A stretch of 42,741 nucleotides of DNA from Pseudomonadota bacterium. GTDB taxonomy: Bacteria; Pseudomonadota; Gammaproteobacteria; CALCKW01. Below the pieces are notes generated by a model. It searched no databases. It was not told where the DNA came from and saw only the letters and a program-made list of their open reading frames with translations. The stretch covers positions 1 to 42,741 of the forward strand of contig JBCCUP010000037.1 in NCBI GenBank assembly GCA_039196715.1, given 5' to 3'. Shown one piece after another: positions 26,637-30,013 of this stretch (within the stretch, counting starts at the first letter, position 1; each line of letters begins with the position of its first letter). The translations under genes and the position numbers were made by a program.

Positions 26637-26666
26637 GAACGCCATGCCCTGAGGCAGGGCCTACAG

Positions 26667-26695
26667 AAAAAGCGCGGCTGGTCCGCGCTTTTTTT
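26667..26695 (+). terminator. Rho-independent terminator after fliA
   Basis: Stem AAAGCGCGG / CCGCGCTTT with a five-base loop (CTGGT), ending in a run of seven T residues. Because the stem begins with an A-run it could also act on the opposite strand. It closes the flagellar cluster. Confidence 0.9.
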
Positions 26696-26732
26696 GTGGC
26701 CCAGTGCGCGACAGCGCGTCGAGGGGAGTTTT

Positions 26733-29700
26733 ATGGCTTGGGTGTGCTCGGGGGTGACTCGATTGCACAAGGCGTTGATCACACTCGGTGTGCTCGGACT
26801 CGCTGTGGCCAGTCAGCTGGCGAACGCGGTGATTCCACCCGGTCGGTTCGTCAACGATCTGCCCGAGTGCAGCGGGGCACTGTTCGAGAGTTTGATGGAG
26901 ATCGACCACGACACGGGCGACCTTCAAGACCTGATCGACAACAACGCCCTGATGGCGCGCTGCACCACTGCGCCGGCTGTCGACCCAGGCGACGCCTTCG
27001 GGCACCGGGTGCGCGTGCTCGCCGGCACCGTCAATTTCGAAAGCCCGCACGGCCACCCGCTCGATCTCACACCCGATGGCCGCCAACTGCTTGCCGTGAA
27101 CACGGCCGGGCACCGGCTCGAAGTGTTCTCGGTCTCGGCCCTCGGTCTCTCTCAACGTCTGAGTGTGCCGGTCGGGCTGGACCCGGTCAGCGTGCGGGCG
27201 CGCAGCAACAGCGAAGCCTGGGTCGTCAATCGAATCAGCGACAGCATCAGCGTGGTCGACCTCGACACCGGCGACGTAGTCCGCACGCTGACAACCGGCA
27301 ACGAACCGGCCGATGTCGTGTTCTCGACCGCACGTGGCCGCGCCTTCGTGAGCATCGCCGACGCCAACCAGATCGAAGTGTACGACCTCGCCGATCTCGA
27401 CACGGCACCGCGTCGTATCGACGCCGGTTTCGAGGAACCCCGCGCACTCGCCGTCAGTCCGGACGGGCTGCGCGTGTACGCGTCGTCGTTCTTCAGCGGC
27501 AGCAACACCACCGTGCTCAGCGGCCGACCCGGGCCGGTCACGAGCGGTGCGGTGCCCGGTACCGAGAACGTCGTGAGCCGCGTGGATACCCCCACGGGCG
27601 GGGTCAATCCCGTCCCGAATCAGGGCAGTCAGTTCTCGCCGCCACTCACCGCGGGCAACCCGGGGTTCAGCACGCTGATCGTGCAGGGTACAGCCGACGG
27701 CGCCTGGCGTGACGACGCCGGCAATGACTGGCGCGGGTTCTTGACCGGTGCGGGAGCTGTCGCGAGCGGCCGCGGCACCGCGTGGCGCCTGCCGGACCGT
27801 GACGTGGTGGTGATCAACGCAACCACACTCGGCATCGATAACTACCAGACCGGCTTGATGACCATGCTGATGGCGTTGGACGCGAACCCGGTCACTGGCG
27901 ATGTGACGGCGGTAGGCATCGATTCGGACAACCACCGGCGCTTCGAACCGAACCTCAATGGTGTGTTTGCGCGGGTCGAGTTCGCGCGCTTCACGCCCGG
28001 GCAACCGAGTCAGAATTTCGACTTGAACCCCCACATCGACTACACGCGGTCGTCGTCGAGCGAGGTGCTGCGCCAACAAAGCATCGGCGACCCGCGGGCG
28101 GTCAAGTGGCACCCGAGCGGCGACCGGATGTACGTGGCCGGGATGGGGTCCAACAACCTCGTGGTGCTCGACCTCAACGGTCAGCGCCTGGGCCAACTCG
28201 CGCTTGGGCAGGGCCCGACCGGACTTGCACTTCTTGCCGATCAGGGGCGTGGTTTTGCGCTCAATCGCTTCGACGGTACCGTCACCGAATTCACCCTGGA
28301 GCCGCTGGCGGAGCGCAGCACCACCGCGTTTCTCGACCCGACGCACGAGTCCATTCGACTTGGCAGGCCACACCTCTACGACACGCACAAGGGCTCGGGT
28401 CACGGTCACCTCGCCTGTGCGAGTTGCCACGTTGACGGTCGCACCGACCGCCTGGTTTGGGACCTCGGAAAGCCCGATGGCGAGAACAGTGTGTTGCACC
28501 ACGCGATGAAGAGTGCGATGCGCACCCAGCCGCTGCTCGACACCATTCGCCACCCCAACATGCACTGGCGTGGCGATCGCAGCGAGCTTCGCGACTTCTT
28601 GCAAACCTTCACTAATTTGCAAGCCGCGACCCCGATCAATGGCCTTGAGATCGGCGAGTTCGAAGACTTCCTGTCCGGTGTGCATTTTCCGCCTAGCCCC
28701 TGGCGCAACGAAAACAACAGCCTGCCCGGCAGTGTGCTGTTGCCGGACAATCCGGTGGCGGCGACCGGTGACGCCGTGTTGGGCCGACAGAAACTGAACG
28801 CCTGCATCGGCTGCCACAGCAACAACCTCAGTCGCAGCGACGTGCAATCGAACGCGTTGGGTCAGAGTGTGATCCCGCCGGACTTCGTGCAGTTCTACAA
28901 GCGCCTCGGTTTCAACGCTGACGACGGCAACCTGTCAACCAGCGGATTCGGTTTTTTTCACGATGGCGCCGACAGCCTGATGGCGGCCGTACCGGACGCC
29001 GACATCCTCGCCGCCCTGCTGGCGTTCGACGGACCGGACAATGGCCTGGCCGTGACCCAGTTGCGACAGGACAGCCACGCGGCGCTCGGACGCCAGCACA
29101 CGGTTCGCGGTACGCCCTCGTTGGCCGACCGGCAGCGGATCAACACGCTGGTCGGCTACGCCAGTCACCCGCACCTGGCGCTCGTGGCCAAGCGCCACGA
29201 CGGCACACGGTGGTTCGGGTACCGGTACGACGCCGGCACGGGTTTCGTCCCCGACCGCGCGGGCGCCGTCGCCGTGACGGTTGATCAGCTGGTGGACGCC
29301 AGCAGCGCCGGCAGTCTGACCGTGACCCTCGTGATGGCCGGCACCGAGTCTCGGGTCGGTGTTGACCGCGACTTCGACACGGTGTTGGACGGCGACGACA
29401 ACACGCCACCGACCCTGGCCAGCTCGGGTGCGCTCACACTGGGTGTCAACGAGGCCGTCGACATCAGCCTCAATGGCCAGGACCTCGACGGCGACAGACT
29501 CAGCTACCAGGTCGCGGGTTTGCCGGCCGGGTTGAGCTTCGACGCCGCGAGCGGTGTGATTCGCGGCCGCGTGGCCACCGCCGGCTCGGCGGTGATCCGC
29601 GCCACCGTGTCTGACGGGCGCGATGCACGCACCTTCGTCTATCCGGTGCAAATCGGCAGCCTGGGCACGGGCGCCGACAACGCGAGTTCGGGTGCGCTGT

Positions 29701-29759
29701 CGTGGTTGCTGCTGAGTGCGTTGGCATTGCTCGGATTGCGTCGCAGGTGGCTTGGGTGA
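26733..29759 (+). CDS. Secreted beta-propeller / diheme cytochrome c protein
   Basis: A 1008-residue exported protein. A signal peptide (cleavage probably after ANA, about 32) is followed by YVTN-type beta-propeller blades at about 90-260 and again at about 445-525 (VKWHPSGDRMYVAGMGSNN). Two c-heme sites, CASCH (562-566) and CIGCH (691-695), are about 130 residues apart, a spacing that resembles diheme peroxidase/MauG proteins. A calcium-type Asp-rich loop (DRDFDTVLDGDDN) lies near 877, then an Ig-like putative domain (about 905-975) and a C-terminal hydrophobic segment closed by RRR. That tail resembles GlyGly-CTERM sorting signals. The ATG at 26733 follows GAGGGGAG. No function is assigned; an oxidase or peroxidase-like role at the cell surface is inference. 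Confidence 0.8.
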   Translation: MAWVCSGVTRLHKALITLGVLGLAVASQLANAVIPPGRFVNDLPECSGALFESLMEIDHDTGDLQDLIDNNALMARCTTAPAVDPGDAFGHRVRVLAGTVNFESPHGHPLDLTPDGRQLLAVNTAGHRLEVFSVSALGLSQRLSVPVGLDPVSVRARSNSEAWVVNRISDSISVVDLDTGDVVRTLTTGNEPADVVFSTARGRAFVSIADANQIEVYDLADLDTAPRRIDAGFEEPRALAVSPDGLRVYASSFFSGSNTTVLSGRPGPVTSGAVPGTENVVSRVDTPTGGVNPVPNQGSQFSPPLTAGNPGFSTLIVQGTADGAWRDDAGNDWRGFLTGAGAVASGRGTAWRLPDRDVVVINATTLGIDNYQTGLMTMLMALDANPVTGDVTAVGIDSDNHRRFEPNLNGVFARVEFARFTPGQPSQNFDLNPHIDYTRSSSSEVLRQQSIGDPRAVKWHPSGDRMYVAGMGSNNLVVLDLNGQRLGQLALGQGPTGLALLADQGRGFALNRFDGTVTEFTLEPLAERSTTAFLDPTHESIRLGRPHLYDTHKGSGHGHLACASCHVDGRTDRLVWDLGKPDGENSVLHHAMKSAMRTQPLLDTIRHPNMHWRGDRSELRDFLQTFTNLQAATPINGLEIGEFEDFLSGVHFPPSPWRNENNSLPGSVLLPDNPVAATGDAVLGRQKLNACIGCHSNNLSRSDVQSNALGQSVIPPDFVQFYKRLGFNADDGNLSTSGFGFFHDGADSLMAAVPDADILAALLAFDGPDNGLAVTQLRQDSHAALGRQHTVRGTPSLADRQRINTLVGYASHPHLALVAKRHDGTRWFGYRYDAGTGFVPDRAGAVAVTVDQLVDASSAGSLTVTLVMAGTESRVGVDRDFDTVLDGDDNTPPTLASSGALTLGVNEAVDISLNGQDLDGDRLSYQVAGLPAGLSFDAASGVIRGRVATAGSAVIRATVSDGRDARTFVYPVQIGSLGTGADNASSGALSWLLLSALALLGLRRRWLG

Positions 29760-30013
29760 CGCGGCGTGTCAGCCGTGGCCTGCCGTACAGTGCCGTGCTG
29801 GCGCTGCTCGGTTGGCTGATGCTGTCCCAGGGCCCGGCGCCTGCGGTGGTTGTCGGGCCGCCCACGGCTGCGTTGCAACAGGACGTGGCGGAGGTGTGGG
29901 CCTGTGGTGAGCGCAACGGGGCGGTGGTTGCTCGGCAGTCGGGTGGTCCGAGCGCTGAGGACGAACCCGGGCGCAGCGACTGCGATTCCGACAGGGTGGC
30001 GGCGCCGCGCTGA
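29756..30013 (+). CDS. Possible small exported protein overlapping the cytochrome gene
   Basis: An 85-residue frame begins at a GTG that overlaps the stop of the preceding gene (GTGA), the same coupling style used elsewhere in this window. The N-terminus is basic (MTRRVSRG) and followed by one hydrophobic segment (about 12-32), so it could be an exported or anchored peptide; the rest is polar with two cysteines. There is no separate ribosome site beyond GGTGG in the gene before. No family is recognised. In this high-GC DNA a chance frame is quite possible. Confidence 0.4.
   Translation: MTRRVSRGLPYSAVLALLGWLMLSQGPAPAVVVGPPTAALQQDVAEVWACGERNGAVVARQSGGPSAEDEPGRSDCDSDRVAAPR

Follow-up and report, generated by a model that had tools for sequence, protein, structure and literature searches.

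A putative surface-exposed diheme protein with a hydrazine synthase beta-gamma-like core in a gammaproteobacterial genome

Based on a computational analysis of positions 1 to 42,741 of contig JBCCUP010000037.1 from Pseudomonadota bacterium (Gammaproteobacteria; CALCKW01; assembly GCA_039196715.1), a stretch of 42,741 nucleotides that we call the window, we consider it fairly probable that one gene, at 26733..29759 on the + strand, encodes a surface-exposed diheme redox enzyme of the propeller-diheme kind known from the beta and gamma subunits of hydrazine synthase (HZS). The family is a known kind, and within its genus the window protein is a variant that is probably surface-sorted. The layout is more than chance, as at least 406 related stretches were found and a small frame overlapping the end of the gene recurs, with the same overlap, in the nearest complete ortholog (locus L044). 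The parts of the protein are as follows, with conservation counted over a 67-row alignment and local model confidence given as predicted local distance difference test score (pLDDT).

26733..29759, + strand: propeller-diheme-Ig protein, 1008 residues and a stop, translated without internal stops
26733..26828, + strand: signal peptide region, residues 1-32 (hydrophobic stretch from residue 16, mean Kyte-Doolittle value 1.83; model helix 10-30)
26838..27023, + strand: N-terminal helical region, residues 36-97, with Cys46 and Cys77 (pLDDT blocks 38-74)
27024..28337, + strand: seven-bladed beta-propeller with insertions, residues 98-535 (Pfam, predicted model, structural match to HZS-beta)
28338..29036, + strand: diheme domain, residues 536-768 (sequence profile and fold comparison)
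28416..28430, + strand: heme 1 site C562-x-x-C565-H566 (C562, C565 and H566 in 67 of 67 rows)
28566..28568, + strand: Trp612 (HWRGD), candidate inter-heme Trp (66 of 67 rows)
28803..28817, + strand: heme 2 site C691-x-x-C694-H695 (H695 in 65 of 67 rows, the remaining two gapped)
29076..29348, + strand: alpha/beta domain of about 90 residues, 782-872 (pLDDT blocks 91-97 over 781-880)
29364..29402, + strand: Asp-rich loop, residues 878-890 (D878 and D880 each in 60, D882 in 59 and D886 in 55 of 67 rows)
29406..29630, + strand: putative Ig domain He_PIG, residues 892-966 (Pfam E 3.9e-08, 34.1 bits, cut-off 24)
29685..29756, + strand: GlyGly-CTERM-like tail, residues 985-1008 (TIGR03501 scores)

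Relatives were collected by a contig scan of the genome collection, in which at least 589 stretches matched and at least 406 encode a relative; one gene may account for more than one matching stretch. The best 80 loci were used. The alignment holds the window protein and 66 of these 80 loci (14 omitted), the set of members scanned with profile models the window protein and 41 loci (42 members), and the set of diheme segments the window protein and 64 loci (65 segments). An AlphaFold2 model built from the 67 sequences had a mean pLDDT of 81.7 and a predicted template modeling score of 0.84. It placed a helix at 10-30, the propeller at about 98-535, a helical region holding both heme motifs at about 537-768, an Ig-like domain after the alpha/beta domain and a terminal helix at 990-1007. 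The propeller was modeled confidently, with a pLDDT of at least 90 in 34 of the 43 ten-residue blocks over 101-530. A first-pass annotation, made from the sequence alone, had proposed an exported polypeptide combining propeller blades, two CxxCH sites about 130 residues apart, an Asp loop and an Ig-like domain, and all of these were recovered: the signal-peptide-like stretch, the seven blades together with a Pfam Lactonase match above cut-off (103-252), two CxxCH motifs whose starts at 562 and 691 lie 129 residues apart, the loop with the sequence DRDFDTVLDGDDN, and the He_PIG match. The column of Cys46 was gapped in 53 of the 67 rows. For the alpha/beta domain there was no family match and structural matches were weak (Z 5.5 or lower), which does not show that it is novel.

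The propeller is structurally closest to that of HZS. In Foldseek HZS-beta was the best match (E 8.3e-18), followed by an archaeal surface-layer propeller (8.6e-15), and superposition on HZS-beta (5c2v_B) gave Z 37.0 with a root mean square deviation (rmsd) of 2.0 over 309 residues, compared with Z 34.6 for the surface-layer propeller. Among sequence models, hydrazine_beta matched the window protein at E 1.3e-14 (54 bits, cut-off 560) and the beta-gamma fusion model NF052342 at E 1e-12 (47 bits, cut-off 1250). The hydrazine_beta and hydrazine_BC models matched all 42 members at E 0.1, with the window protein below their cut-offs.

A profile of the 65 diheme segments matched HZS-gamma best (2.2e-08), followed by the cytochrome c peroxidases (CCPs) of Shewanella (2.7e-07) and Nitrosomonas (5.8e-06) and by MbnH (6.2e-05). 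The stretches aligned with HZS-gamma were SCASCH...T..L.WDLGD, which contains heme 1, and PxPxRNxDxSL. When the diheme part was modeled separately, the fold comparison gave Z 8.8 for HZS-gamma, 8.7-7.3 for CCPs, 8.4 for MbnH and 7.8 for MauG, and 5.5 or lower for all others; these matches aligned 181-192 residues at rmsd 3.8-4.4, and the top rows were tied. The likeness to MauG and CCP that had been suggested earlier is thus borne out by profile and fold, with HZS belonging beside them as a relative. Like bacterial diheme CCPs, MauG and MbnH (PF03150, TIGR04039), the window protein has the diheme fold and a candidate inter-heme Trp; unlike them, it is fused to a propeller and scores below the family cut-offs, and counterparts of the distal Gln and Glu, if present, could not be placed with certainty. 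Around heme 1, not only the heme residues C562, C565 and H566 but also W576, K593, T598 and H611 were invariant in the 67 rows, R613 was conserved in 66, and position 615 was Asp in 54 and Glu in 13.

The propeller-diheme layout as such is known, because a fusion of the HZS propeller gene with the diheme CCP-like gene in Scalindua profunda (PMC3655542) and homologs of it (PMC12758564) have been described. The earlier remark that the exact architecture was not recognized as a characterized enzyme therefore needs correcting as to the core layout. According to PMC12758564, HZS was previously considered to be without homologs outside anammox bacteria, fused homologs outside them being reported in 2025; distant homologs of the beta-gamma fusion protein are very common among environmental bacteria, an alpha homolog adjoins some of them, and residues key to HZS are not conserved in the homologs studied. 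With the Scalindua fusion scal00025 (beta and gamma are separate in Kuenenia, PDB 5c2v) the window protein shares the joining of a propeller and a CCP-type diheme domain in a single chain, and also the stretches around heme 1; HZS-beta is the closest structure to its propeller. It differs in adding the alpha/beta domain, Asp loop, Ig domain and tail, and in lying far below the cut-offs of NF052342 and NF052341. With the fused homologs of PMC12758564 it has in common the fused layout, two heme motifs, a wide spread and a conserved Trp near heme 1, whereas their clades I-IV were selected for a neighboring alpha homolog and none was found for the window gene.

The window protein is not a hydrazine synthase, because no alpha gene was found, a third heme Cys is lacking and the scores are far below cut-off. 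PF18582, the HZS alpha domain, had no match at E 1 in the window's own genome (96.21% complete). It had 16 matches in 9 of 50 relatives' genomes (completeness not stated) and none in the other 41, and none of the 16 lay on the contig of the core gene; this was judged from the accessions, whose numbers matched the contig numbers in all three comparable cases (L044-L046). As the window translation has no Cys in the stretch between 566 and 690, and hence none between the two heme motifs, HZS gamma-Cys165 has no counterpart.

Surface sorting of the protein through its tail is probable. The hydrophobic tail (LSWLLLSALALLGLRRRWLG), with its predicted helix at 990-1007, agrees with the earlier description, but the chain ends in RRRWLG and not in RRR as had been stated. 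A Gly-containing motif without Cys, a transmembrane stretch and a basic end (SSGALSWLLLSALALLGLRRRWLG) are present, as described for such tails in PMC3237569. The GlyGly-CTERM model TIGR03501 (cut-off 15.5) scored the tail at 18.2 bits (E 0.038) in the genome search and at 17.0 bits on the last 100 residues. This was the best score in its own genome, where nine proteins matched at E 10 and two were above cut-off, in line with the proposed GlyGly-CTERM-like signal. The MYXO-CTERM model gave 18.3 bits on the last 100 residues, under its cut-off of 20. A rhombosortase, to which the earlier annotation had linked the tail and whose absence would have spoken against its proposal, is encoded in the own genome (135.3 bits, cut-off 84) and in all 4 genus genomes; none of 14 control genomes had one above cut-off, although all had weak matches. 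The type II secretin GspD was present in the genome as well (562.5 bits, above cut-off). A CcsA-like protein was also present: two proteins of the genome were above cut-off for PF01578, and the open reading frames (ORFs) beside the first we take to be ResB-like and DsbA-like, names read by eye. Cytochrome c System I was rejected as a candidate, the CcmF model TIGR00353 giving no match at E 1e-10. The resemblance to GlyGly-CTERM/rhombosortase systems lies in the C-terminal motif, hydrophobic stretch and basic residues of the protein and the rhombosortase of the genome; it departs from them in that the tails of orthologs lack a model match, and in that neither 'cytochrome' nor 'propeller' occurs in the main text of PMC3237569. 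If the sorting is as proposed, c-type diheme proteins would join rhombosortase cargo.

A similar tail (SSGGGALGLAWLVASGLWFGARRRR) was seen in L003 (G000:C12), which shares the Ig domain with the window protein and matched the GlxA radical copper oxidase model at 152.2 bits (cut-off 800). L002 (G000:C26) also shares the Ig domain and is L003-like by eye. A surface pair of a peroxide maker and a diheme enzyme is conceivable.

In the mechanism that we favor, the protein would cross the inner membrane by the Sec pathway, would have its hemes attached through the System II (Ccs) pathway, for which the genome holds the CcsA-like protein, and would leave the cell by type II secretion, after which rhombosortase would clip it at the tail and it would be retained at the cell surface. 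Heme 1 (His566) may be the open, substrate-binding heme and heme 2 (His695) an electron relay, with Trp612 between them and the propeller serving as a docking scaffold. In the likeliest chemistry a small oxidant, for example hydrogen peroxide or nitric oxide (NO), would be turned over with electrons from an outside partner; alternatively the same enzyme might perform radical chemistry on the outside partner. The reaction could involve peroxide, NO or the oxidation of a partner.

Several observations weigh against this assignment. For the propeller, PQQ_ABC_repeats scored nearly as hydrazine_beta did (2.4e-14) and ranked first for the relative L046, and the generic YVTN and PQQ_ABC models likewise matched 42 of 42 members. 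In PDB sequence searches the surface-layer propeller came before HZS-beta, both with the single protein (1.8e-17 and 9.2e-09) and with the family profile (3.1e-38 and 6.7e-15); by sequence alone, the propeller appears as close to generic YVTN-type propellers as to HZS. For the diheme segment, Foldseek gave nothing under E 0.001, the MbnH model matched the window segment better than hydrazine_gamma did (0.0017 versus 0.0088), and over the 65 segments it matched 59 compared with 49 (E 0.1). Confidence around heme 1 was low, with pLDDT blocks of 58-86 over 561-620 in the full model; the separately modeled diheme part reached 73.7, with blocks of 43-56 over its residues 21-80. As to the tail, TIGR03501 gave 13.6 bits on the whole protein, below the cut-off, one of the 14 control genomes also had a tail above it, and the last 100 residues of L044 and L046 had no match. 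By eye, the L044 tail has a Gly-rich motif, a hydrophobic stretch and RRRL, and that of L046 has no Gly-Gly motif before its hydrophobic stretch and a Cys inside it; the model cannot detect every true tail according to PMC3237569. The Ig domain and tail evolve fast. Finally, no sigma-70-type promoter site was seen between the start of the gene and the hairpin that precedes it, and no biochemical study of an alpha-free member was found in openly licensed PMC papers.

Three more specific activities were weighed. A surface diheme peroxidase that removes hydrogen peroxide, possibly supplied by the GlxA-like copper oxidases that carry its Ig domain and are encoded in this genome, is a rather doubtful alternative. 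It would fit the CCP fold and the sub-cut-off GlxA match, Ig domain and similar tail of L003, with L002 alike by eye. Set by eye against FWDGRAKDLKEQAAGPIANPKEM (FWDGRA, Nitrosomonas CCP, 1iqc), Trp612 also occupies the place of the CCP Trp. PF03150 matched 35 of the 42 members at E 0.01, but in the window protein (539-622) it reached 23.0 bits, under the cut-off of 25.6. The distal Gln and Glu of CCP we presume to lie at +10 and +20 from the inter-heme Trp. Without gaps, the Gln position is Phe622 (66 of 67 rows) and the Glu position is residue 632, which varies (Asp in 26, Ala in 16, Arg in 13 and Gly in 7 of 67). If a gap is introduced, the Glu-Met of the CCP motif NPKEM might correspond to the conserved E639-M640 (Glu in 54, Met in 59 of 67 rows; E-I in the window protein), but Glu639 also fits the start of a stretch that, in the alignment with HZS-gamma, is an ordinary cytochrome helix.

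We find it unlikely that the protein is a MauG/MbnH-like enzyme oxidizing Trp or Tyr side chains of a propeller-bound partner. Propellers often dock proteins, and both the 59 MbnH-matched segments and the fold scores of MbnH and MauG suit this idea, but the MbnH model TIGR04039 gave the window segment 17.5 bits against a cut-off of 362.85, and no neighboring gene recurs in more than 8 of the 80 loci, antisense ORFs aside and with several loci having short flanks. An enzyme handling NO as HZS-gamma does (NO to hydroxylamine) and working without an alpha subunit seems improbable: the two stretches aligned with HZS-gamma and the best or tied-best structural match of both domains to HZS argue for it, while the missing gamma-Cys165, the alpha domain found neither in the own genome nor in 41 of 50 relatives' genomes, and the key residues not conserved in the homologs studied in PMC12758564 argue against it.

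The relatives of the propeller-diheme protein among the matches listed span several phyla, the nearest being in genomes labeled Granulosicoccaceae, the genus-mates G001-G003. Two CxxCH motifs were present in 77 of the 80 loci, 129-188 residues apart (median 160); the sequences of L045 and L085 end before the second motif, and L052 has CxxxxCH. In L052 this second motif is CTGGACH, and by eye a hydrophobic stretch with RRR near the protein end resembles a sorting tail. Outside the genus most matches stop near residue 889, longer ones being L047 (to 944), L048 (to 973), L086 (to 985) and L104 (to 959). In a quick tree of the 67 rows the window protein groups with L044, L045 and L046 (support 100), and the next group of eight rows (support 99) adds two Thiotrichaceae, Ideonella and one Acidimicrobiales-labeled bin; the remaining rows are Planctomycetota, Myxococcota, Verrucomicrobiota, Acidobacteriota and other Pseudomonadota. 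The C-terminal parts of the 42 members differ (GC-type dockerin in 9, TSP3 in 5, He_PIG in 4, F5/8-type in 2 and cadherin-like in 2), which indicates a constant core with an exchanged end. When 143 relatives' genomes were searched with at most five candidates scored per genome, 51 had some match, mostly to the propeller or Ig domain, and matches reached the diheme part in seven (G000-G003, G036, G090 and G141). A plasmid DNA search matched flhA or unannotated DNA, and a plasmid protein search returned six records, each below 60% identity.

Speculatively, and with the odds against it, alpha-free propeller-diheme proteins may form a large extracellular enzyme family from the stock of HZS beta-gamma, in which the means of anchoring one shared core to the surface would differ by lineage at the C-terminus, with a GlyGly tail and Ig domain in the window protein and dockerin-like repeats in many Planctomycetota. 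In this genus the enzyme would further be served by a small, translationally coupled protein that is exported or membrane-bound. A widespread alpha-free family with the same core would provide testable stand-ins for the chemistry from which HZS may have arisen.

Additionally, we examined the small frame at the end of the gene and the setting of the gene, for which two further features are relevant.

29756..30013, + strand: 85-residue frame with a hydrophobic N-terminus followed by two Cys, starting at the GTG of the GTGA overlap (stop 30011-30013)
26661..26699, + strand: terminator-like hairpin after fliA (-25.4 kcal/mol, z -4.36; T run)

The small frame probably encodes a coupled small membrane or exported protein. 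Its overlap with the large gene and its hydrophobic N-terminus were as first described, and conservation, on which the earlier proposal also depended, was seen in L044, the one complete close ortholog, where a frame of 86 codons begins at an identical GTGA overlap and is matched by tblastn at E 2.5e-09 over the loci collected; the evidence for conservation comes from L044, the L045/G001 sequence ending inside the large gene. The first parts of the two frames share GLPxxAVLALLGWLxLSQG. The codon score was 0.113, compared with -0.58 to -0.08 in the other five frames; it is lower than in any window of the large gene (0.151 or more), and the large gene was part of the training set. The small frame evolves faster than the large gene: its nonsynonymous to synonymous ratio (pN/pS) was 0.64, with 0.51 over the 40 aligned codons at the start and 0.74 over those that follow, versus 0.35 in the large gene. 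A chance ORF was rejected on the codon score, the overlap and length in L044 and the tblastn match. Profile searches gave no family match for the small frame, and further matches in the genus were chance-like (E 0.036 or worse). In L046, from a genus-mate at greater distance, a 165-residue ORF (L046:9112-9606) starts 99 bases after the large-gene stop, in the place of the small frame; its N-terminus is weakly similar (45% over 20 residues, E about 1), and a PPC model matches it below threshold (19.1 bits, cut-off 25.9).

Upstream of the large gene lie genes for an FHIPEP (FlhA) protein, an SRP54-type GTPase, a ParA/MinD-type ATPase and a sigma factor, which we take to be flhA, flhF, flhG and fliA; downstream and convergent are an ABC ATPase with a TOBE domain and then glnE. 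The suggestion that the gene sits where motor or chemotaxis genes follow fliA was not upheld as a functional link, as the hairpin with its T run that separates fliA from the gene is also present in L044 and L045 (the L045 piece that was folded ended before its T run). Since this hairpin is strong and recurs in two relatives, the flagellar setting is probably incidental, and co-transcription with the flagellar genes is considered unlikely. A terminator scan found one site elsewhere (2.3 expected) and missed the hairpin, probably because its stem extends into the A/T run.

Two of the bins in the tree carry doubtful labels: L110, labeled Candidatus Kuenenia, falls among Planctomycetota with dockerin-like ends, and L050, labeled Klebsiella pneumoniae, is placed beside Burkholderiales rows. 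The largest recurrent neighbor cluster (14 loci) was dropped, as it consisted of antisense ORFs over the core gene. An ORF that is EF-hand-like by eye was found near the core gene in 8 of the 80 loci, including L087, L097, L100, L102, L105 and L110, and in seven of the eight it lies on the same strand, 99-272 bases downstream of the core gene.

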